Assembly (NCBI GenBank): GCA_028876395.1
Contig: JAGWRX010000075.1
Span: forward strand, 1-32,868
Source: Acidobacteriota bacterium
GTDB lineage: Bacteria; Acidobacteriota; Terriglobia; Terriglobales; Acidobacteriaceae
Direction: 5' to 3'
Length of the DNA stretch: 32,868 bases
Positions 13,688-30,243 of the stretch are shown here, piece by piece (within the stretch, counting starts at the first letter, position 1; each line of letters begins with the position of its first letter). The notes beneath the pieces were generated by a model. It had not been told where the DNA came from. It searched no databases and saw nothing but the letters and a program-made list of their open reading frames with translations. The translations under genes were made by a program, and so were the position numbers.

Positions 13688-13701
13688 GTGACAGCTGTCA
13701 C
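13688..13701. promoter_or_regulatory. 14-bp perfect palindrome upstream of the sulfur operon
   Basis: GTGACAGCTGTCAC is a perfect 14-base palindrome located 82 bases before the ArsR-type gene. It looks like a dimeric regulator site; the cognate protein is unknown. Confidence 0.4.
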
Positions 13702-13782: not shown

Positions 13783-14151
13783 ATGAAGCAGACCATGAGC
13801 GACGCGTCGTGCGAAATGCTCGGCGACTTCTTTGCCACCTTTGCGCATACCACCCGCATGCGCATCTTCTGCGCGCTGCAGCGGGGACCCAAGACCGTGA
13901 CGGAAATTGCCGCGGAGGCGGGAGTAACCATCACCAACGCCTCGCAGCATCTGCGCCTGATGCGCGACCGGGGCGCCGTGATCGCGGAAAAGCATGCGCA
14001 GAGCGTTCACTACCATATCGCCGACCGGCGCTTTGTCGAAGCGGCGATCCAGATTCGCGAAGCGCTGTTTGAACGCTTGCGCCATGAAGCAGAACAGGCG
14101 GCTGTGCGCCCTTCGCGGCGACGGTTGCCTGTGGCGTCACCGCCTGCATGA
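13783..14151 (+). CDS. ArsR-family winged-helix transcriptional regulator
   Basis: Encodes 122 residues with AGGAGAAG just upstream of the ATG. The fold is the ArsR/SmtB dimeric repressor type: a LGDFFATFAHTTRMRIFCALQ helix pair, recognition helices TVTEIAAEAGVTITNASQHLRLM, and a wing (DRGAVIAEKHAQSVHYHIA). The only cysteines are Cys10 and Cys30. They are not at the positions used by the sulfide sensors BigR/SqrR, as I recall those, but could still form a redox or persulfide switch. It leads a five-gene set for sulfur handling, and a palindrome lies 27-44 bases upstream. Most likely a sulfur-compound-responsive repressor of this operon; effector is inference. Confidence 0.85.
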   Translation: MKQTMSDASCEMLGDFFATFAHTTRMRIFCALQRGPKTVTEIAAEAGVTITNASQHLRLMRDRGAVIAEKHAQSVHYHIADRRFVEAAIQIREALFERLRHEAEQAAVRPSRRRLPVASPPA

Positions 14152-14245
14152 GGACAATGCAGATGGAAATTTGAGGGATGGTTGTAACATTCGCAATTTT
14201 GGTGACTTTCATTGGAGTAAGGCTTTTGGGGGAAGGAGAAATACG

Positions 14246-15481
14246 ATGCGGCAGCTTTTGATTCTAGGCGGGGGAACCGGGGGAACGATTATGGCCAACA
14301 AGCTGGCTCCCGTTCTCGACAGCAATGAGTGGCAGATCACCCTCGTCGACAGCACGGACAAGCATTACTACCAGCCTGGATTCCTGCTGGCTCCCTTTGG
14401 CGTCTACAACGTGCAGGATCTTGTGCGGCCGCGGCGACGGTATCTGCCTCCCGGCGTGAAGGTCATCATTTCTGCCGTCGACCATATCGATGCGGAAAAG
14501 AAGACCGTCACGCTGGAGAACAAAGTCGCGCTGCAGTACGACTACCTGATCATCGCCACCGGCGCCGACATTCATCCCGAGCAGACAGAGGGCCTTCTTG
14601 ATGAGGAGTGGGGCCGCAGCAAGTTTGATTTTTACACCCCGCACGGGACGGAGAAGCTGGCGAAGTTCCTGAAGACGTGGCAGGGCGGAAAGCTCGTTCT
14701 GAACATGACGGAGATGCCCATCAAGTGCCCGGTTGCGCCGCTCGAGTTTTTGTTCCTGGCGGACGCATACTTCACGGAGCGCGGCATGCGCGACAAGGTC
14801 GAATTGCAACTGGTGACGCCGCTTTCTGGCGCCTTCACCAAGCCGACATCGAGCCGCGTGCTGGGCGAGTTCCTCGATCGCAAGGGCATCTCGGTGGTGC
14901 CGGACTTCAGCCTGGCGCGCGTGGACAGCCAGGAGAAGAAGATTGTGTCCTGGGATGAGAACGAAGTGAACTACGATGTACTCATCTCCATCCCCACCAA
15001 CATGGGCGATGCCTCCATTGCGCGCAGCGGCCTTGGCAATGAACTCAACTTCATTCCCACGAACAAGGAGACGCTGCTGGCCGATGGATTGAAGGACGTG
15101 TTTGTGCTGGGCGATGCCACCAACCTGCCTAGTTCGAAGGCCGGATCGGTGGTTCACTTCCAGTCGGAGATTCTCTTTGAGAATTTCCTTGAGCACATCG
15201 ATGGCCGGCCCATGCATGCCCGCTTTGATGGCCACGCGAACTGCTTTATCGAGTCCGGCTTTGGCAAGGGCCTGCTGATTGACTTCAACTATCAAACGGA
15301 ACCTCTGCCAGGCGAGTTCCCGCTGCCCGGCATCGGGCCCATGACGCTGCTGAAAGAGAGCCGCATCAACCACTATGGCAAGCTGATGTTCCGCTGGGTC
15401 TACTGGAATATCCTGCTGCGCGGGATTGAACTGCCGATCGGGTCCGCGATGTCGATGGCAGGAAAGAGGGAGTTGCCATGA
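14246..15481 (+). CDS. Sulfide:quinone oxidoreductase-like FAD flavoprotein
   Basis: Encodes 411 residues from ATG 14246, preceded by GGAAGGAG (14231-14238). Two Rossmann folds are visible: the N-terminal LLILGGGTGGT, an ATGAD motif (104-108), and the FAD-contacting VFVLGDATNLPSSKAG (286-300). The whole protein has exactly two cysteines, Cys161 (MPIKCPVAP) and Cys333 (NCFIE), matching the two redox cysteines that oxidise sulfide and carry polysulfur in SQR enzymes. A C-terminal amphipathic/hydrophobic end (FRWVYWNILLRG) could dock to the membrane, as in SQR. Likely reaction: H2S to sulfane sulfur with electrons to quinone. Its stop overlaps the next start (ATGA). NADH-dependent persulfide reductase is an alternative. 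Confidence 0.85.
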   Translation: MRQLLILGGGTGGTIMANKLAPVLDSNEWQITLVDSTDKHYYQPGFLLAPFGVYNVQDLVRPRRRYLPPGVKVIISAVDHIDAEKKTVTLENKVALQYDYLIIATGADIHPEQTEGLLDEEWGRSKFDFYTPHGTEKLAKFLKTWQGGKLVLNMTEMPIKCPVAPLEFLFLADAYFTERGMRDKVELQLVTPLSGAFTKPTSSRVLGEFLDRKGISVVPDFSLARVDSQEKKIVSWDENEVNYDVLISIPTNMGDASIARSGLGNELNFIPTNKETLLADGLKDVFVLGDATNLPSSKAGSVVHFQSEILFENFLEHIDGRPMHARFDGHANCFIESGFGKGLLIDFNYQTEPLPGEFPLPGIGPMTLLKESRINHYGKLMFRWVYWNILLRGIELPIGSAMSMAGKRELP

Positions 15482-16167
15482 CCAACCCTGAAGTCGATGA
15501 ACGCATCATCGAGATGAACCAGAAGCTCGACGCGATCGCGGAAGAGCTTGGGCACCTGAGACGGTACAGGCAAAGTGCCGAAGACCTCGCCGCAGATCTC
15601 TCCCTGGTGGGGAAAGACGCCATGGGAGGCGCGATCGAAGCCTGCGAGTCGCTTGACTTCCGCGTGCAGGATGCGGTGCCGCTGGTGAAGGCTGTGCTGG
15701 CGAATACCCGGTTGCTGACCCAGGCTGTGCAACAGCTTGAGAGCGCCGCCGATTTTGTGACGGATGTGCAGCCGATTGTTCGCGACGTCTATCAGCAAGC
15801 GGTCAGTGGGAGCCAGTTTCTCGAGGAGAAGGGATACTACAGGGCTGCATTTGCCGGACTGCGCATCGGCGACGCGCTGATTCAGTCGCATTCCCCGGAG
15901 GACCTGAAGCAGGTCGAGGCCAGCGTGCCTCAACTCATCGGCTTCCTGCGGGAGTTGACCCGGCCCGAGGTTCTGCAGGCCCTGGAAGCGATCATTCACG
16001 GCTTCGGACAGGTGCAGGCAACGATGAACGTCAACAAGTCGGTCCTGGAAATTGTGCGGGACCTCAATTCCAAGGACGCACGCCGCGGCATAGCGATCAT
16101 CGTGGAATTTCTCAAGGTTGTTGGGGCGCAGAGCGTGTTCGCGCAAGCAAAGAACCGACAAAAGTAA
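15478..16167 (+). CDS. DUF1641 family protein
   Basis: Encodes 229 residues; its ATG overlaps the flavoprotein stop by 4 bases, so the two are translationally coupled. The sequence is almost wholly helical, starting with a coiled-coil-like EMNQKLDAIAEELGHLRRYRQ segment and followed by the DUF1641-type block ending in IIHGFGQVQ. There is no membrane span, and the only cysteine lies early, in an EACESL segment. DUF1641 proteins are known beside SQR-like and formate-dehydrogenase-like genes, but their function is not established. Coupling suggests a partner or membrane adaptor of the flavoprotein. Confidence 0.8.
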   Translation: MTNPEVDERIIEMNQKLDAIAEELGHLRRYRQSAEDLAADLSLVGKDAMGGAIEACESLDFRVQDAVPLVKAVLANTRLLTQAVQQLESAADFVTDVQPIVRDVYQQAVSGSQFLEEKGYYRAAFAGLRIGDALIQSHSPEDLKQVEASVPQLIGFLRELTRPEVLQALEAIIHGFGQVQATMNVNKSVLEIVRDLNSKDARRGIAIIVEFLKVVGAQSVFAQAKNRQK

Positions 16168-16186
16168 AAGACGGAGAGGTGAAAAC

Positions 16187-16504
16187 ATGGCAACACTGAC
16201 AGTAGGTGGCAAGGCACTCGAACTCGACGCGGACGGGAACCTGGCTCACATCAACGACTGGACGGAAGACATCGCCCGCGAAATCGCCGTGCAGGATGGC
16301 ATTCCCGAACTCACGCCGCAGCACTGGACGGTGATCAACTTCATGCGCCAGGTCTTCATGAAGGAAGGCGATGCGCCCAGCATTCGCCGCCTGACCAAGG
16401 AGAGCGGCATCGACACCAAGACCCTTTATCAGCTTTTTCCCAAAGGGCCGGCGAAGCGCGCGGCAAAGATTGCGGGCCTTCCGAAACCCAAAGGATGCAT
16501 CTGA
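16187..16504 (+). CDS. DsrC/TusE-family sulfur carrier, single C-terminal cysteine
   Basis: Encodes 105 residues from ATG 16187, with GGAGAGG at 16173-16179. The family pattern is clear: LDADGNLAHINDWTEDIA, ELTPQHWTVINFMRQ and the C-terminal arm GLPKPKGCI. In DsrC proper, the arm has two redox cysteines; here the penultimate Cys104 is kept but the upstream one, normally in a GACK-type segment, is replaced (RAAK). It is the only cysteine in the protein. By that criterion it is TusE-like: able to carry a persulfide but not to form the intramolecular trisulfide used with dissimilatory sulfite reductase. No dsrAB or tusBCD lies in the window. Confidence 0.9.
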   Translation: MATLTVGGKALELDADGNLAHINDWTEDIAREIAVQDGIPELTPQHWTVINFMRQVFMKEGDAPSIRRLTKESGIDTKTLYQLFPKGPAKRAAKIAGLPKPKGCI

Positions 16505-16518
16505 AACAGGAGAGAACC

Positions 16519-16995
16519 ATGGCAGACACAGCACAGCCCATTGAAAAGGTTTCGATCATCATCTCGCGCGGATCGCTCGAGGGCGTCTATCCCGGCCTGA
16601 TCATGGCCAATGGAGCACGGATGGAGGGCATCGAGGCATCGTTGTTCTTCACGTTCTTTGGCCTTGACGCGGTCATCAAGAAACGGATGAATGACCTCAA
16701 GGTGGCCACAGTCGGCAATCCCGCGATGCACATTCCCACACTGGTCGGGGCGATACCTGGCATGTCCTCCTTCGCCACGAGCATGATGAAGAAGGAAATG
16801 GAGAAGCTCGACATTCCTCCAGTGGCCGAGTTCCTCACCATGATTCATGATGCGGGCGCGCCGATGTATGCCTGCCGCGCAACCGTGGACATGTTTCATC
16901 TGAAGAAGGATGACTTCTGTCCGGAAATTGATGGCGTGATCTCCGTCGGGCAGTTCTACGAGATGGCCGCGGGCGGGCAAATCATCTTCACGTAG
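16519..16995 (+). CDS. DsrE/DsrF/DrsH-like sulfurtransferase
   Basis: Encodes 158 residues from ATG 16519, preceded by AGGAGAG, 14 bases after the DsrC-like stop. The fold is that of DsrE-like proteins: VSIIISRGSLEGVYPGLIMANGA, then a helix-strand core, and a closing strand-helix DGVISVGQFYEMAAGG. Cys119 (MYACRAT) sits where the persulfide-carrying cysteine of the family is expected; Cys134 (DDFCPE) is the only other cysteine. DsrE proteins pass sulfane sulfur to DsrC/TusE-type carriers. Coupled here to an SQR-like enzyme, it probably receives the sulfur that enzyme releases. Confidence 0.85.
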   Translation: MADTAQPIEKVSIIISRGSLEGVYPGLIMANGARMEGIEASLFFTFFGLDAVIKKRMNDLKVATVGNPAMHIPTLVGAIPGMSSFATSMMKKEMEKLDIPPVAEFLTMIHDAGAPMYACRATVDMFHLKKDDFCPEIDGVISVGQFYEMAAGGQIIFT

Positions 16996-20362: not shown

Positions 20363-21544
20363 TCAGTATTTGCGCACCGACGGATCAATCTCGTCGCTCC
20401 AGGCCAGGATGCCGCCGGCGAGGTTCGCGACCTTCGCGTAGCCAGACTGCTTGAGGAACTCCGCGATGCGCTGCGAGCGCGCGCCACTGCGGCACTGCAC
20501 CACCACTTCGCGCTCGCGGTCGATCTCGGCTAGGCGCTGCGGCACGTCGTTCTGCGGAATCAGCGTTCCGCCGATGTTGGCGATCTGGTACTCATAGGGC
20601 TCGCGCACATCGAGGATGAACACATCCTCGCCCGCATCGAGGCGCTGCTTCAGCTCCTTCACGCTGAGCTGCGGAATGCCGTTCTTCAATGACTTCTCCT
20701 CTTTTGTCTCCGGATGAATTCCGCAGAATTGCTGATAGTCGATGAGTTGCGTGACGGTCGGATGCTTGCCACACACGGGGCAGTCTGGGTTCTTGCGCAG
20801 TTTCAATTCGCGAAAGCGCATGCCGAGCGCGTCCACCAGCAGCAGGCGGCCGACGAGCGAGTCGCCCTTGCCCAGAATCAGCTTGATGGCCTCGGTGGCC
20901 TGGATGACGCCTACCAGTCCGGGCAGAATGCCCAGCACGCCGCCCTCGGCACAGCTGGGAACCAGACCGGGCGGCGGCGGCTCAGGATAGAGACAGCGGT
21001 AGCAGGGGCCTGCCTCCGTGGCAAAGATGCTGGCCTGCCCCTCGAAGCGAAAGATCGAGCCGTAAACGTTCGGCTTGCCCAGCAGCACGCAGGCATCGTT
21101 GACCAGATAGCGCGTGGGAAAGTTGTCCGTCCCGTCGGCGACGATGTCGTAGTCCTTCAGAATCTCAAGGGCGTTGGCGCTGGTGAGCATCGTCTCATGC
21201 TTCACCACGTTGAGCGCGGGGTTCAGCGCCTTGAGCTTCTCCTCGGCGGAGTCCAGCTTCTTGCGGCCAATGTCTTTGGTCGAGTGGATAATCTGGCGCT
21301 GCAGGTTGCTCGCGTCCACCACGTCAAAGTCCACCAGCCCCAGCGTGCCTATACCGGCCGCTGCCAGATAGAAAGCCAGCGGCGAGCCCAGCCCGCCCGT
21401 GCCCACGCAGAGCACCTTGGCCGCCTTCAGCTTCCGCTGGCCCTCCATGCCCACCTCGGGCAAAATGATGTGCCGCGAGTAGCGGGAGAGATCGTCGGTG
21501 GTCAGCTCAGGCAGGGGAATCGGTTCCATCGTGGTTGCCATCAT
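20363..21544 (-). CDS. moeZ: Adenylyltransferase/sulfurtransferase MoeZ-type (ThiF domain plus rhodanese)
   Basis: Encodes 393 residues from ATG 21544 (a second ATG follows directly). The N-terminal ThiF/MoeB domain has VLCVGTGGLGSPLAFYLAAAGIG (nucleotide loop), the DADNLQRQ-type block VVDASNLQRQ, and zinc cysteines C181/C184 and C255/C258. Cys198 (PSCAEGG) is in the crossover loop. The C-terminal rhodanese domain (about 290-393) carries the persulfide Cys351 in CRSGAR. Such fusions adenylate the C-terminal glycine of ubiquitin-like sulfur carriers (MoaD, ThiS, CysO) and transfer sulfur to them. The JAMM peptidase gene nearby fits a CysO-like pathway; no carrier gene is seen. Confidence 0.92.
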   Translation of the reverse strand: MMATTMEPIPLPELTTDDLSRYSRHIILPEVGMEGQRKLKAAKVLCVGTGGLGSPLAFYLAAAGIGTLGLVDFDVVDASNLQRQIIHSTKDIGRKKLDSAEEKLKALNPALNVVKHETMLTSANALEILKDYDIVADGTDNFPTRYLVNDACVLLGKPNVYGSIFRFEGQASIFATEAGPCYRCLYPEPPPPGLVPSCAEGGVLGILPGLVGVIQATEAIKLILGKGDSLVGRLLLVDALGMRFRELKLRKNPDCPVCGKHPTVTQLIDYQQFCGIHPETKEEKSLKNGIPQLSVKELKQRLDAGEDVFILDVREPYEYQIANIGGTLIPQNDVPQRLAEIDREREVVVQCRSGARSQRIAEFLKQSGYAKVANLAGGILAWSDEIDPSVRKY

Positions 21545-21756
21545 GCATGTCTCATTTTCTTGCGCCGGTCTGATCCGGCAAACTGCGGCGTTGAGGCGCC
21601 GCTCGTCAGCGTGGTCAATCCCGGATGAAAGCGACGGGGAAATCCGGAGCATGGCGAGCGCACATCTGGCCGTGCTTCTATAAGGTTAACAAAAGCGCGC
21701 AGTCTTCCCCCTGCGTCGAACAGATTCAGCGGCGCACCCGCTTCAACGAACACGCA

Positions 21757-22879: not shown

Positions 22880-23386
22880 TCATTCCGCGCCCGCCGTTTC
22901 GCCGTCCAGCCTGATAACTTCCCGCACAAATCGCTTGCATTCCTCTCTTGTCCCCGACAGCAGGAAGGAGTTAGTCTCCATAGCTTTACCCTGCGCTACG
23001 GCGGTAATGACATACGAGCAGCCCAGCCAGTGTGCCTCGGCGAGGTCGGTCGCGGACCATTGCGCCCCATGGTCGGGGTGGGAATGGTAGAAGCCCGCAA
23101 TCTGCAGGCCGCGGCGGCGTGCCCCGATCTCGATCTTCACCAGCTCTTTGGGGGCGATGCAGTAGCGGTTGTGAGCCGAGTCAGTATGCGCGTTGGCTGC
23201 CCGCACCGCCTCCTCGATCCGCCACCCCTCCGGCGTGGAGTGGCCCAGCAGCACGCCGCAGCACTCGTGCGGGTAGGTCTCCTCGGCGTGGACGCGAAGG
23301 GCAAGATATGCGGCGCGCGGAAGCCGCAGGGTCGAGACAGGCGCGGCTTTTGCGTCACTGGATTCCATGGCGGAATTGCGGCCCAT
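22880..23386 (-). CDS. M67-family JAMM metallopeptidase
   Basis: Encodes 168 residues from ATG 23386; ATG 23368 would remove six residues. The complete zinc site is visible: Glu41 in HECCGVLLGH, and H101-S-H103-P...S111-A-T-D114 (HxHP-x6-SxxD). Bacterial JAMM proteases of this size, such as Mec+ of mycobacteria, trim the C-terminus of ubiquitin-like sulfur carriers such as CysO, and are linked to MoeZ-type adenylyltransferases. The MoeZ-type gene lies two genes away, on the same strand. No carrier or cysteine synthase gene is seen in the window, so the link is probable but not shown. Confidence 0.88.
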   Translation of the reverse strand: MGRNSAMESSDAKAAPVSTLRLPRAAYLALRVHAEETYPHECCGVLLGHSTPEGWRIEEAVRAANAHTDSAHNRYCIAPKELVKIEIGARRRGLQIAGFYHSHPDHGAQWSATDLAEAHWLGCSYVITAVAQGKAMETNSFLLSGTREECKRFVREVIRLDGETAGAE

Positions 23387-25146: not shown

Positions 25147-25959
25147 TCAGGGATTTCTCCAGAAGAACCAGGCGGCCATGAAGAGGCCAAGGAAAACGAC
25201 AGAACCGCGCAGCACCGGTTGCGGCACCTTGCGAGCCATGCTGGCGGAAGTGTAGCCGCCAATGGCCGAGCTGACCATGGCCAGCAGACAGTAGCGCCAC
25301 ACCACCTGGCCGTTCACCACAAAGATGGCAAAAGCGATGCCGTTGGCCATGGTGGTTGAGACCACTTTGAGCGCATTGATCTCGTGGATGTCCTGGTACC
25401 CGAAGAGCGAAAGCAGCGTGATGATCAGGAATCCCGCGCCGGCGCCAAAGTACCCGATGTAGAAGCAGACCACGACGGTGGCCACAAAAACCGGCAGGCG
25501 GCGCTGCGCATGCGCGCCGCCCGCGGCGTCTGCGCGGCGGGCCGCGTTCCGGCGCTCAAGCCAGCGGGAGACCGGTCCGCTCACGGCAAAGATGATGGCT
25601 GCGACAAGCAGCAGCCACGGTACCAGATGCAGGAAGGTCAACTGCGGCGTGATGAGCAGAACGATAGCGCCGGCCGTGCCGCCCAGCAGCCCGGCCAGCC
25701 CCAGCGGCAGGGCCACCCGCAGGTTTTTGCGAATGTCATGACGATAGGCGGCAATGGATGTGAGCTGGCCCGGCCACAGCGCCACGGTATTGGTGGCGTT
25801 GGCCTGGATGGGCAGCATCTTCATGCTCAGCATGGCGGGAAACAGGAGAAAGGAGCCGCCGCCTGCCACGGCATTGAGCACCCCGGCAATAAAGGCAGCC
25901 GCCGTGAGCCAGAGCCAGTGCCAGTCCATGTAAGCAGGAAGGCTGAAGAGATGCATCAT
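25147..25959 (-). CDS. TauE/SafE-family membrane transporter
   Basis: Encodes 270 residues from ATG 25959 (another ATG follows at 25956); an ATG at 26016 would add a non-hydrophobic leader. About seven or eight membrane helices, with the typical AFIAGVLNAVAGGGSFLLFPAML and NATNTVALWPGQ motifs in the first half and YFGAGAGFLIITLLSLFG / NALKVVSTTMANG in the second, the duplicated TauE/SafE pattern. Family members export sulfite, sulfoacetate or other small organic or sulfur anions. The substrate is not known here; the nearby sulfur genes make a sulfur anion attractive but unproven. First gene of a three-gene operon. Confidence 0.9.
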   Translation of the reverse strand: MMHLFSLPAYMDWHWLWLTAAAFIAGVLNAVAGGGSFLLFPAMLSMKMLPIQANATNTVALWPGQLTSIAAYRHDIRKNLRVALPLGLAGLLGGTAGAIVLLITPQLTFLHLVPWLLLVAAIIFAVSGPVSRWLERRNAARRADAAGGAHAQRRLPVFVATVVVCFYIGYFGAGAGFLIITLLSLFGYQDIHEINALKVVSTTMANGIAFAIFVVNGQVVWRYCLLAMVSSAIGGYTSASMARKVPQPVLRGSVVFLGLFMAAWFFWRNP

Positions 25960-26081
25960 CTGACGGATATTGTAGAGTGCAGGGCCTGAACCTATCTTGA
26001 AAGCGCCTGCGGGCAACGGCGGGATGAACGTACCCCCGAAAATGCCCTTTCGCGCCAGAGCTTTCGGAGTATGCTCTTGTC

Positions 26082-28163
26082 ATGCTTTCGCTTCCCCGTC
26101 GTTCCATGCTCGCCGTGGGGTTGATGTTGATTGCCTTGTTCGCAGCCCCGCCCCGGTCTGCCGCACAGTCCAGCGCCCCGGTGCTTGAAGTCGATGGTCT
26201 CGGCAAAGGCTCCGCTCCGCTCGAAGGGCCGTGGCAGTTTCATCTGGGCGATAATCCCGCATGGGCGCTGCCGCAAGCCGGCGACGACCAGAACAGCGTC
26301 GGCTGGGAGCAGATCAGCCCGGACAAGACCTGGGGCGCGCAGGGCCATCCGGCCTACACCGGCTTCGCCTGGTATCGGAAGCACATCCGGCTCTCCCCTG
26401 CGCCCGGCGCATCGCCCGACGTTGCCCTGCTGATTCGCCATATCGACGACGCATACGAAATCTACTGGAATGGCCAGCTCATCGGCCGCCATGGCACGAT
26501 GCCTCCGAACCCCTCATGGCCGTATAGCCCGCCGGCGCAGACCTTCGGCATGGGACCCGCCCGCGAAGGCGTCCTCGCCCTGCGCGTGTGGAAGGGGCCC
26601 TTGACCTCATTCGATTCAGAAAAACTGGGCGGGCTGTATGCAGCGCCCATCGTCGGCAGCCCGGCAGCCATCGCCGGCTTGAAAGCCGAACTCGACTACA
26701 CCTGGCTGCGCAGCCGGCAGTATGACTTCGGCCTGAATTCCCTCTACTTTCTGGTGATGGTGCTCAGCCTGCTGGCGTGGATGCGCAACCGCTCGCAGCG
26801 CGTCGTTCTCTGGATGGCCGTCTTCAGCGGCGCGCCCGTGCTGATTACCCTGCTCGTCGGGCTCCGGATTCCCTTTTCCTTCAACTTCGCCCTCGGCTGG
26901 CTGCAGCCGGTTTTAGCTCTGGCAGACATCAGCCTCTGGTTCGTTCTCCTCTATCTCCTCAAACTGGACGAATCTTCCACCTTCGCGCATCTCACACGCC
27001 TGCTGGCCATCAGCAGCATCTGCGCTACATCCCTGGACGGCCTGCTGACCATGCTGGACTGGAGCAATCCGCTCATCGCACCCTGGGTGCAGGCGACAGA
27101 CGGCGTCCTGACAGTCGTGTTTACCCTCGCCGAGGCGTATCCGCTGGTGCTGGTAGCCGCCGCGCTCCGCAAACGCCTGGACGCCACACGCTGGATGGTT
27201 GCAATAGCCGCCCTTCTCGACGGCATGATCTCCGTGGTGCGTATCGCCGTGCAGCAGGGCAGCCGCTACACCCACTGGACGCTGGGCGAGAAGATCGGCG
27301 CGCCGCTGTTCACTCTCAATGGCAACACATTCACCGCGAAAACCATCGCCAGCACCCTCCTGCTGCTGGCCATCATCTACGCCGTCTACCGCTACCTGCA
27401 GGACTCAAGCCAGCGCCAGAGCGTGCTGGAGCAGGAATTCAAAAGCGCGCGCGAGCTGCAGCAGGTCCTCATTCCAGAGACCATTCCCGCCATCCCCGGA
27501 TTCGCCCTCAGCAGCGCCTACCGCCCCGCGCAGGAGGTGGGCGGCGACTTCTTCCAGATCATGCCGCTCGAAGGCGACCACGCCGGCTCCACGCTCATCA
27601 TCCTGGGTGACGTGAGCGGCAAAGGCCTGAGAGCCGCCATGACCGTGTCGCTCATCGTGGGAGCGGTGCGCACACTGGCGCGCTTCGCGCCCAACCCCGC
27701 AGAAATGCTGAGTGAGCTCAACCGTCGACTCTTCGGCCGCCTGCAGGGAGGCTTCGCAACCTGCCTCGTGCTGCGGCTGGACCCCGGCGGCCATTGCGTC
27801 ATCGCCAGCGCCGGCCACCCGGCGCCCTTCCTCAACAAACACGAGCTTGGCCTGCCGGGAGCGCTGCCGCTCGGCGTCGTGGCCGCCGCCCACTACGAAG
27901 AGACCTCGATGCGCCTCCACGAGGGCGACCACTTTGCCTGCTACACAGACGGCCTGCTCGAAGCCCGCAGCGCCAGCGGGGAGATCTTCAGCTTCGAGCG
28001 GCTCGGCGCGCTCTTCTCCTCCCGCCCGGACGCCACCAAGGCCATGGAAGCCGCCGTGGACTTCGGCCAGGATGACGACATCACCGTCCTCACCTTCACC
28101 CGGCTGGGCACCGGCGAACAGTCCACAACAACCATTTCCGTGCCGAAGTTCGCTCAAGCCTGA
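26082..28163 (+). CDS. Membrane SpoIIE-type PP2C phosphatase with periplasmic sensor (1)
   Basis: Encodes 693 residues. Signal peptide (about 1-28), then a periplasmic beta-sandwich domain (LEGPWQFHLGDNP, YTGFAWYRKHIRL, DDAYEIYWNGQLIGRHG) resembling the sugar-binding jelly roll of beta-galactosidases; seven membrane helices (about 210-445); a short coiled coil (QRQSVLEQEFKSARELQQVLIP); and a SpoIIE/PP2C domain with EVGGDFF, GDVSGKGLRAAM, ASAGHPAPF and DDDITVL, holding the expected metal-binding aspartates. It probably couples a periplasmic ligand to dephosphorylation of an anti-sigma antagonist; no antagonist or kinase gene is adjacent. It is followed 100 bases on by a paralogue with the same architecture. 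Confidence 0.88.
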   Translation: MLSLPRRSMLAVGLMLIALFAAPPRSAAQSSAPVLEVDGLGKGSAPLEGPWQFHLGDNPAWALPQAGDDQNSVGWEQISPDKTWGAQGHPAYTGFAWYRKHIRLSPAPGASPDVALLIRHIDDAYEIYWNGQLIGRHGTMPPNPSWPYSPPAQTFGMGPAREGVLALRVWKGPLTSFDSEKLGGLYAAPIVGSPAAIAGLKAELDYTWLRSRQYDFGLNSLYFLVMVLSLLAWMRNRSQRVVLWMAVFSGAPVLITLLVGLRIPFSFNFALGWLQPVLALADISLWFVLLYLLKLDESSTFAHLTRLLAISSICATSLDGLLTMLDWSNPLIAPWVQATDGVLTVVFTLAEAYPLVLVAAALRKRLDATRWMVAIAALLDGMISVVRIAVQQGSRYTHWTLGEKIGAPLFTLNGNTFTAKTIASTLLLLAIIYAVYRYLQDSSQRQSVLEQEFKSARELQQVLIPETIPAIPGFALSSAYRPAQEVGGDFFQIMPLEGDHAGSTLIILGDVSGKGLRAAMTVSLIVGAVRTLARFAPNPAEMLSELNRRLFGRLQGGFATCLVLRLDPGGHCVIASAGHPAPFLNKHELGLPGALPLGVVAAAHYEETSMRLHEGDHFACYTDGLLEARSASGEIFSFERLGALFSSRPDATKAMEAAVDFGQDDDITVLTFTRLGTGEQSTTTISVPKFAQA

Positions 28164-28275
28164 GCCGCGTCCGGACTGGCGGAAAGACAAAGCGCCGCAG
28201 CCCTCAACCCACCGGCTCGCGCCAGCTCTGAGAATTCGCTATTGCGGAAACAGGCAGCAGAGTATGCTTTTTCCC

Positions 28276-30243
28276 ATGCTTCCCCTGCGCCCGCCTCGCG
28301 TGGCGGAACTCCACGCTGCATTTCTGGCTCTCCTGCTCGCGCTGCCCGGCGCGCTCGCCGCGCAATCCATCATCGCAATCACGCCGCAACAATGCGTGTG
28401 GCGGTTCGGCGACAACCCTGCCTGGGCCGCTCCGACACTCGACGAGAGCGGCTGGCAACCCTCCGCGCAATGGAAGCTGCCACTCGAAGAGCCGCACCTG
28501 TGGGCGCGCTGCCATGGGGATTTGAGCTCACTGCGCGGCACGGCGCATCCGGCAGTGCAAATCAGCCTTGCTGGCGCTTATCAGCTTTTCGTGAACGGAG
28601 TGCCCGTCGGCGGTGCCGGCAATATGCGCACCGGTTTTTTCAGGATGGACACAATCCGGCAGTATCCGCTGCCGGCCGCCGCGCTTGAAACTCAGCCGGG
28701 CAGCATAGCATTGCGGATCACCTCCCCTCAGGCGATTTGGAATACCAACCCTCTGGAGATTCATGCCGGGGATTCGGAGGCGCTTACGGGGCAGCGTGCC
28801 GGCTTTGTCCTCGCCCAGAGCGAGAGTGTCCTGGTGGTTGCGCTTTGGTACCCTCTGATCGGCGTAGTCGGCCTCATGCTGCTGGGACTCTTCTACTACG
28901 ACCGCAGCCGCTGGGAGCTGCTGTACCTGTGCATCATATGCGTAATCAGAGCCACTTATGGAATCTTTGCGTACTGTGCCGCGGCGCTGATGAATTTCCC
29001 GTGGGCCCTCTCCACGGCAATTCAGGGGGTAGCAAGCGCTGTGGATCCGGTCGTGTTTGTCCTGTTCTTCTTTGCAATGGCGCGACGCCGCGTACCCCGA
29101 CTCTTTTGGCTGGCCGCTGCATTCGTCGCTGTGCCCAATGGACTGTACGCACCCGCTCTATTGCTTCCTGCTGATCAATCGCTCTGGCTGCAAGGAAGGA
29201 TTCTGGATCTAAGTGTGAACACCGTTCTGGTTACTGTCGCGTGGCTGGCAATTTCGATATCGCCTTTTCTAGCCTTCTGGCCGTACAGGCAAATCTCACG
29301 CCGTATGCGCGCCATGGCTGCCCTGTGCATGCTGTTTGGGGCGTTCGACTTCGTCTGGTTCGCCGTGGCAATGACCGGTGATCCGCGGCTGGGATTGCCA
29401 AACCTGTTCGCCTACTGGCATCGCGGGCTTCTGGAAACGCTGGCTTTTCTCACAGGTTGCCTGCTGACGGGGTTGCTCGGGTTGCTCTTCCGGGACCAGA
29501 GGCGGGTGACGGAGGAGCGTGCCATGCTGGCAGGCGAAATGCAGGCGGCCAGCGAGATTCAGCGCATGCTGGCGCCGGCAAAGATCGACAGCGCGCCTGG
29601 CCTGCATATCGAGGTCGCATTTCACCCCGCGCGCGATGTGGGCGGGGACTTTTATCTCTGCCGCGTGCTCGGGGACGACCGCCAGCGCGTGCTGGTGGGC
29701 GACGTGAGCGGAAAGGGCGCGGCCGCTGCCATGACTGCGGCCCTGCTCAACGGAGCAGCCGGGCGTCGCGACAGCGACTCACCATCGGAACTGCTCCGCC
29801 ACCTGAACCTCGTGATGAAGGACATGCGCCTTGGTGGTTTCGCCACCTGCCTTTGCGCGGAACTCTCGGCAGACGGCACCCTGACCGTCGCCAACGCCGG
29901 CCACCTGGCCCCCTATCGCAACGGGGACGAAATCACCCTCCATAACGGATTGCCGCTCGGCATCTCGTCGGAAGCCGAATACACCGAATCCACCTGCCAG
30001 CTCGCCCCCGGCGATTCGCTCACCTTCGTCTCAGACGGTGTTGTCGAAGCGCGCAACGCGGCCGGCGAGCTCTTCGGATTCGACCGCACCGCCGCCATTG
30101 CCACCGAGCCACCCGGCGCGATTGCCAGCGCGGCTCAGCGCTTCGGCCAGGAGGACGACATCACCGTGCTGACCCTGACCCGGCTGGCCGCGGGCAGAGA
30201 GTCACCGGCACCCCTCGCCATCCCGGCAGCCGAGCCTGCCTGA
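28276..30243 (+). CDS. Membrane SpoIIE-type PP2C phosphatase with periplasmic sensor (2)
   Basis: Encodes 655 residues from ATG 28276, in frame with ATG 28264, which would add four residues. I prefer 28276 because the two tandem genes share GAGTATGCT then ATGCTT around this ATG. Order as in the first: signal peptide, shorter periplasmic beta domain (VWRFGDNPAWAAP, SLAGAYQLFVNGVPVGGAG), seven membrane helices, coiled coil (REAAGEM-type stretch EERAMLAGEMQAASEIQRMLAP), and a PP2C domain with DVGGDFY, GDVSGKGAAAAM, NAGHLAPY and EDDITVL. The ligand domain differs more than the phosphatase domain, suggesting duplication followed by new signal input. Confidence 0.87.
   Translation: MLPLRPPRVAELHAAFLALLLALPGALAAQSIIAITPQQCVWRFGDNPAWAAPTLDESGWQPSAQWKLPLEEPHLWARCHGDLSSLRGTAHPAVQISLAGAYQLFVNGVPVGGAGNMRTGFFRMDTIRQYPLPAAALETQPGSIALRITSPQAIWNTNPLEIHAGDSEALTGQRAGFVLAQSESVLVVALWYPLIGVVGLMLLGLFYYDRSRWELLYLCIICVIRATYGIFAYCAAALMNFPWALSTAIQGVASAVDPVVFVLFFFAMARRRVPRLFWLAAAFVAVPNGLYAPALLLPADQSLWLQGRILDLSVNTVLVTVAWLAISISPFLAFWPYRQISRRMRAMAALCMLFGAFDFVWFAVAMTGDPRLGLPNLFAYWHRGLLETLAFLTGCLLTGLLGLLFRDQRRVTEERAMLAGEMQAASEIQRMLAPAKIDSAPGLHIEVAFHPARDVGGDFYLCRVLGDDRQRVLVGDVSGKGAAAAMTAALLNGAAGRRDSDSPSELLRHLNLVMKDMRLGGFATCLCAELSADGTLTVANAGHLAPYRNGDEITLHNGLPLGISSEAEYTESTCQLAPGDSLTFVSDGVVEARNAAGELFGFDRTAAIATEPPGAIASAAQRFGQEDDITVLTLTRLAAGRESPAPLAIPAAEPA

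Follow-up and report, generated by a model that had tools for sequence, protein, structure and literature searches.

A conserved SQR-DUF1641-DsrC-DsrE operon of Acidobacteriota as a candidate sulfide-oxidising module with a putative quinone-coupling subunit

Results

A five-gene operon built around a type III SQR

We analysed a stretch of 32,868 nucleotides (the window), which is an entire contig of the draft genome of an Acidobacteriota bacterium (G000; 3.85 Mb, 246 contigs, 87% complete), and concentrated on an operon that encodes an ArsR-type regulator, a sulfide:quinone oxidoreductase (SQR), a DUF1641 protein, a DsrC-family protein and a DsrE-family protein (Table 1). The gaps between the five open reading frames (ORFs) are, in order, 94, −4, 19 and 14 bases. 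These ORFs and gaps had been put forward in an initial annotation made from the letters alone, together with Cys104 of DsrC and Cys119 of DsrE, and both coordinates and residues checked out. Its family assignments held as well, since all five proteins score above Pfam or NCBIfam cut-offs, DUF1641 just barely.

Table 1. Operon genes and promoter palindromes of the window
Feature	Position	Strand	Product	Remarks
ArsR/SmtB-family regulator	13783-14151	+	122 aa; Cys10 and Cys30	NF033788, 65.2 bits (cut-off 55); PF01022 above cut-off
Type III SQR, Cys at the family's Sec position	14246-15481	+	411 aa	NF049943 (type III SQR), 630 bits (cut-off 525)
DUF1641 protein, putative quinone-coupling subunit, ForE-related	15478-16167	+	229 aa	PF07849, 21.7 bits (gathering cut-off 21)
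TusE-like DsrC, single arm Cys104	16187-16504	+	105 aa	PF04358, 122 bits (cut-off 24.9); TIGR03342 above cut-off
DsrE-family sulfurtransferase (DsrE_2), putative active Cys119	16519-16995	+	158 aa	PF13686, 105 bits (cut-off 25)
14-bp perfect palindrome GTGACAGCTGTCAC	13688-13701			5' of arsR; candidate second regulator site
18-bp perfect palindrome TTTGCG-N6-CGCAAA	13739-13756			Putative ArsR operator; 26 bases 5' of the arsR start

By its profile match the flavoprotein is a type III SQR, with sulfide:quinone oxidoreductase as its predicted activity. Cys161 and Cys333 are present in all 103 aligned rows and align with cysteines of human SQOR, which we take to be the catalytic pair of that enzyme, the first of them (in the motif IKCP) presumably being catalytic. 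Papers are cited below by PMC number and are drawn on through excerpts. NF049943 has been described as a selenoprotein subtype of SQR, with selenocysteine (Sec) in an HxxU motif (PMC13188914). We rejected a selenoprotein for the window, where this position holds a Cys codon and no in-frame TGA is present. All 103 rows have Cys at the HxxU position, a finding that favours catalysis by Cys333.

The gene order is conserved across phyla

SQR relatives were taken from a scan of one genome per species (84,980 species), and the best 80 of 134 relatives were used. The order SQR-DUF1641-DsrC-DsrE is present in 71 of these 80 loci, a conservation far beyond chance; the check proposed in the initial annotation, that relatives should keep the order, thus came out in its favour. 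Five of the 80 loci lack only DUF1641 and four are interrupted by contig ends, and ArsR lies directly upstream in 11 of the 71 complete ones. Going by the names that submitters gave, the 80 loci come from 12 named phyla and from groups such as KSB1, with the full order in 11 phyla; the sole Chlorobiota locus among them is without DUF1641. More loss was seen in a phylum sample (L116-L137), where DUF1641 adjoins SQR in 6 of 22 loci, DsrC-DsrE occurs without DUF1641 in 8, and SQR stands alone in its 1.5-kb flank in another 8. Among 396 sampled Acidobacteriota genomes, DsrC was found in 24 of the 25 with SQR vs 71 of the 371 without.

On a 97-row SQR tree, two changes suffice to explain the presence of DUF1641: the SQRs that go with it fall in a single clade of 77 rows (SH-aLRT 99), inside which it was lost once (L055). 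This tree was made with a quick method, carries a long-branch warning and has no known root, so that the basal change may be a gain or a loss. It excludes L040, L070, L085, L103 (contig end), L115 (SQR split in two) and L118 (apparently a duplicate of the L037 genome), and it retains L105, although the SQR of that locus spans two ORFs. The closest SQR relatives of the window operon in the tree are Acidobacteriota. Of six protein pairs, SQR and DUF1641 had the highest distance correlation (r 0.89, 77 loci). Candidate SQR-DUF1641 fusion ORFs were discarded as mere stop-to-stop overlaps, and clustering of the flank ORFs brought up mainly spurious, overlapping frames, with no further partner standing out clearly.

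Several loci of one Acidobacteriota family (f51; L125-L130 and L134) carry an SQR of the type III family and, within 1.5 kb of it, none of DUF1641, DsrC and DsrE. A single DsrC from genomes of this family was examined (L175, G313) and is of the two-cysteine kind.

DUF1641 is related to a menaquinone-coupling subunit

The kinship of DUF1641 with ForE, seen at the level of sequence, is the main new point of our analysis. A profile of 69 operon DUF1641 members (profile A2) matches ForE1 (PDB 8rqz) at 2.7e-8. In addition, a hydrogenase-linked DUF1641 protein (L217) matches HucM (PDB 7uus) at 7.8e-11, which ties HucM to DUF1641. ForE is the subunit that couples a formate dehydrogenase to menaquinone, and ForC depends on it for its formate:menadione activity (PMC8808070); HucM forms a hydrophobic stalk or tube that has been proposed as the route of menaquinone to Huc (PMC10017518). 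Because of these matches and published roles, we infer that the operon DUF1641 couples SQR to quinone. The adaptor role that the initial annotation gave to DUF1641 is thereby kept, and sharpened to membership of a family in which the proteins studied so far link enzymes to menaquinone.

In two proteomic studies, DUF1641 proteins increased along with a neighbouring enzyme. In Sulfobacillus on sulfide ore, a DUF1641 protein (function called unknown) and its SQR neighbour were up 2.2-fold and 5.8-fold, respectively (PMC7409299), and an adjacent FAD-oxidoreductase/DUF1641 pair, the significance of which was called unclear, was up 5-fold and 10-fold in an Ignicoccus co-culture (PMC3149612). NDH-2 is a flavoprotein of the SQR superfamily (PMC9666304). 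Literature queries for DUF1641 with DsrE or with 'sulfide quinone' gave no mention of DUF1641 among the matches listed, and a single search gave no paper on YjlC or the 'NDH-2 membrane coupling protein'.

Partner families were searched for in 70 SQR-bearing genomes, made up of 55 with SQR-DUF1641-DsrC, 12 with SQR-DsrC-DsrE without DUF1641, and 3 with SQR alone; a PF07849 match above cut-off occurs anywhere in 41 of these 70. The L217 protein comes from an operon-bearing Anaerolineales genome, where its gene stands between hyp genes or regulators and a [NiFe] hydrogenase large subunit (region L217:3779-7428), the neighbours being named by eye.

A one-cysteine DsrC and the adjoining DsrE

An alignment to solved DsrC showed that the penultimate residue, Cys104, is the only arm cysteine of the window protein, with Ala at the place of the second cysteine (CysB). 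Canonical DsrC, which has both CysB and CysA, was therefore rejected. Cys104 is found in 91 of 92 ungapped rows (93 rows in all). A penultimate cysteine alone agrees with TusE, and the PRK11508 equivalog of TusE was missed (84.9 vs 191 bits). The sister genomes G018 and G032 encode two kinds of DsrC, a two-cysteine one adjoining dsrAB and a one-cysteine one in the operon. Among the best 30 Acidobacteriota DsrC loci by score, a set that by rank leaves the window-type operon outside, 29 encode two-cysteine proteins and have no operon-type DsrE in the fetched flank; the sole one-cysteine DsrC among them is followed by an operon-type DsrE. Accordingly, the initial label of 'DsrC/TusE-like carrier' was right about the DsrC family, and the solved-DsrC alignment and the contrast with the dsr-linked copies correct it to the one-cysteine, TusE-like kind. 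At L171 (G305), a one-cysteine DsrC followed by an operon-type DsrE occurs in a genome without a listed NF049943 SQR at E 1e-100, which may have another partner there, or an SQR that has diverged.

The best solved relative of the window DsrE is PDB 2qs7 (1.1e-15), and its Cys119 is present in all 87 ungapped rows (91 rows). The DsrE2 profile NF047629 was missed (103 bits vs a cut-off of 210). Assignment to DsrE3A was rejected, as that group has Cys-X7-Cys (PMC4175335) and the window protein has Cys119 and Cys134, the latter not conserved. DsrE4, defined in the same source as encoded downstream of SQR, fits by gene position only, with DUF1641 and DsrC in between. A DsrH/TusB homologue was found in none of the 70 SQR-bearing genomes, which makes the operon DsrE unlikely to be a subunit of a DsrEFH/TusBCD complex, and such a complex was rejected on this ground.

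ArsR and two promoter palindromes

Of 12 ArsR proteins encoded next to SQR, 10, that of the window among them, have both Cys10 and Cys30; the cysteines are missing in L094 and L099. A role of this ArsR as a sulfide or persulfide switch is plausible from these residues. The BigR/SqrR persulfide sensor family (NF040642) was discarded as an assignment at 32.2 bits, with a cut-off of 155.

The 18-bp palindrome has one match in the window at up to 3 mismatches, with 0.04 expected. Its core was found at 9 of 238 loci searched, which correspond to five distinct sites, all of them 5' of arsR: that of the window and those of two operons each in G033 and G443. No match of the core precedes the ArsR-led SQR operons of L036, L045 and L047. 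The 14-bp palindrome GTGACAGCTGTCAC lies 37 bases 5' of the 18-bp one and also has one match in the window (0.07 expected at up to 2 mismatches). It recurs 5' of an ArsR-TusA-Hdr cluster at L229 and, with 13 of 14 bases in the visible stretch, at L230.

Downstream sulfur partners differ between genomes

The initial annotation had stated that no Dsr or Hdr partner is encoded within reach. This held for the window, where Dsr and Hdr families were absent from the 25 non-operon ORFs scanned with Pfam (30 ORFs scanned, which is not the whole window), and for the 87% complete G000, in which we found no TusA, FlpD or DsrH match and no dsrA above cut-off. Two weak dsrA matches in G000 are far below cut-off and lie in a CysI-like protein, three sulfite-reductase-fold matches in two proteins look assimilatory by eye, and six CCG-domain matches lie in three proteins that resemble other enzymes by eye. 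Of the 70 SQR-bearing genomes, 4 have dsrA above cut-off, 25 have TusA, 33 have FlpD and 29 have none of these; any dsrA match at E up to 0.001 occurs in 17, and most of these are weak. The canonical Dsr pathway was rejected on these counts. An in-frame TGA in dsrA of G018 and G032 appeared, on reading, to be a normal gene end.

For the genus, the same statement fails because of a cluster encoding ArsR, TusA, FlpD, HdrA-like, QmoC-like and DsrE proteins that stands less than 20 kb away from the SQR operon in the same-genus genomes G033 and G443, its nearest gene being ~7 kb and ~10 kb away, respectively. Two HdrA-like proteins and a QmoC-like protein were identified in G033, and one HdrA-like-looking protein, by Pfam only, in G443. 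For TusA of G033 we adopted the search match on the + strand, at a place where the simple ORF list gives an antisense ORF. The ArsR of this cluster closely resembles the operon ArsR, and TTTGCG-N6-CGCAAA or a near form stands 5' of both, which points to a two-operon sulfur regulon in the sister genomes. The ArsR paralogue, the TusA-FlpD-HdrA-QmoC-like-DsrE genes and the same promoter palindrome lie at L229:2362-8506 and beyond and at L230:7056-13816. More widely, TusA and FlpD occur together in 17 of the 70 genomes and are neighbours by coordinates in 9, with the pair of G494 ~11 kb from the operon DUF1641.

Discussion

A candidate sulfide-oxidising module

We propose, with a probability of roughly 58%, that the operon encodes a sulfide-oxidising module composed of a type III SQR, DUF1641 as its quinone-coupling subunit, and a protein relay of DsrC and DsrE for the sulfane sulfur. 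The SQR would take up H2S and form a persulfide on Cys161/Cys333 with reduction of its FAD, and DUF1641, like ForE and HucM, would give the SQR access to membrane (mena)quinone, to which the electrons would pass from FAD. The sulfane sulfur would be removed from the SQR by proteins and not by a small thiol, namely by the flexible Cys104 arm of DsrC and by Cys119 of DsrE, in either order, and would move onward to thiols, polysulfide or S0, or to a TusA/Hdr-like complex where one is present; the final acceptor probably differs between genomes. ArsR would keep the operon repressed as long as its Cys10/Cys30 are not oxidised by sulfide or persulfide. Sulfide oxidation with a DsrE/DsrC-type relay had already been suggested in the initial annotation; the SQR family, the conserved cysteines and the gene order bear this out, and the flow of sulfur, like the activities, quinone handling and inducer, we infer from them. 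A more tentative extension, to which we give distinctly less weight, is that the SQR works as a multi-protein complex in which an oligomer of DUF1641 would form a HucM-like hydrophobic stalk bringing menaquinone, and in which the one-cysteine DsrC arm would enter the SQR and remove the persulfide directly. Sulfide oxidation would then be coupled at both ends with no Dsr, Hdr or small-thiol acceptor, in what could be an old module, found in at least 11 phyla.

A number of observations weigh against the proposed module. The window DUF1641 clears its PF07849 cut-off by 0.7 bits only; profile A2 reaches YjlC (9snk) at 5e-4, the 'NDH-2 membrane coupling protein' (9pxk) at 1e-3 and HucM at 1, and designed helical proteins, at 0.002, score near or better than these three. 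A fold model of DUF1641 (pLDDT 81.7, pTM 0.38) gave no relative at E up to 0.001 in a fold search. SQRs can normally reach quinone unaided, and that of the window retains a segment at its C terminus that can be aligned with human SQOR. With regard to distribution, 13 related loci carry SQR, DsrC and DsrE without DUF1641, eight more Acidobacteriota SQRs are solitary within 1.5 kb, and SQR above cut-off is patchy, being present in 5 of 60 relatives and, within these, in 4 of the 36 from the same genus (window included). The choice of the best 80 of 134 relatives favours close relatives of the window SQR, and the putative operator is present in three of six ArsR-led acidobacterial operons.

Alternative explanations

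We wondered whether the SQR operon could be the entry arm of a single dissimilatory pathway whose exit arm is the TusA-FlpD-HdrA-QmoC-like-DsrE cluster, the latter having been lost from the window genome or missed by its assembly. This would be compatible with the DUF1641 part of our proposal and is consistent with the cluster in G033 and G443, its similar ArsR and shared palindrome, and with the co-occurrence and occasional proximity of TusA and FlpD described above. We nevertheless regard it as unlikely, because dsrA, TusA and FlpD are all missing from 22 of the 55 SQR-DUF1641-DsrC genomes, which include G000 and the more complete G449 (99%) and G037 (96%). Moreover, the cluster of G443 is flanked by ThiF and (by eye) TauE, and the same ThiF-TauE interval in the window is occupied by other genes. 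A biosynthetic role, in which DsrE and the TusE-like DsrC would pass sulfane sulfur from SQR to tRNA 2-thiouridine (MnmA) or another thiolation, seems the least probable of the options weighed here. In Escherichia coli, TusBCD-TusE relays sulfur to tRNA 2-thiouridine, and the one-cysteine arm resembles that of TusE; neither TusA nor DsrH was found in G000, so a substitute could be needed. On the other hand, an SQR found in 25 of 396 Acidobacteriota genomes is unlike a housekeeping need, the TusE cut-off was missed, and the operator is common to the operon and the Hdr-like cluster of sister genomes.

It is also conceivable that the operon serves detoxification only, with persulfide or polysulfide leaving the SQR as S0 and with DsrC and DsrE just buffering persulfide. 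Methylacidiphilum makes S0 with an SQR-TusA-DsrE2 operon raised (PMC10205796), and no constant downstream partner emerged among the families searched. That both protein carriers are strictly conserved, together with their cysteines, suggests specific transfer instead, and we consider detoxification alone improbable, about on a par with the exit-arm explanation. Among these options the module of SQR, quinone-coupling DUF1641 and DsrC/DsrE relay remains the one we prefer.

Relation to known systems

The nearest known systems are SQR-TusA-DsrE operons, in which TusA is the carrier, and the version with DUF1641 and one-cysteine DsrC is, according to the literature searched, the new part. In Methylacidiphilum fumariolicum, as here, the genes after a type III SQR encode a carrier and a DsrE-family protein, and the operon is ~1.7-fold up with H2S; its carrier is TusA whereas that of the window is a one-cysteine DsrC, and the excerpts of that paper mention neither DUF1641 nor ArsR (PMC10205796). 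TusA-SQR-DsrE4 of Metallosphaera cuprina (Mcup_1722-1724) includes a DsrE group defined, as would apply here, by position downstream of SQR. That system is archaeal and has TusA where the window has DsrC, and the likeness to DsrE4 is one of gene position, not of tree (PMC4175335). The menaquinone-linked formate dehydrogenase ForCE has a small DUF1641 subunit beside a quinone-reducing enzyme in its operon, as does the window, but its partner is a Mo/Fe-S enzyme and not an SQR flavoprotein (PMC8808070). The likeness to the Huc stalk runs via the L217 protein, the direct match of the SQR-operon profile to HucM being weak, and for YjlC and the NDH-2 coupling protein the chain names indicate a flavoprotein partner, NDH-2, with a match near noise. 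The DsrEFH-DsrC and TusBCD-TusE systems use DsrE- and DsrC-family carriers, as here; compared with these pathways, the window has no above-cut-off dsrA, no DsrH and no second DsrC cysteine, and its DsrE comes without F and H. A description of the SQR-DUF1641-DsrC-DsrE unit was not found in the literature covered, which excludes subscription papers and preprints.

If the proposed module is real, a protein family with no assigned function would be explained in more than 70 of the SQR loci found here, and the principle of soluble adaptors that hand membrane quinone to respiratory enzymes would extend from formate and hydrogen to sulfide; were the complex real too, one quinone-extraction family would serve a further enzyme class. 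Sulfide oxidation would become predictable in lineages without Dsr or Hdr markers, and the operon would offer a clean test of the role of a one-cysteine DsrC outside tRNA thiolation.

Other genes of the window

Near the operon, the window encodes ThiF-rhodanese (20363-21652), JAB-domain (22880-23386) and TauE/SafE-type exporter (25147-26016) proteins, families that are frequent in sulfur metabolism. Beyond these lie two adjoining ORFs for SpoIIE-domain phosphatases (26082-28163 and 27712-30243).

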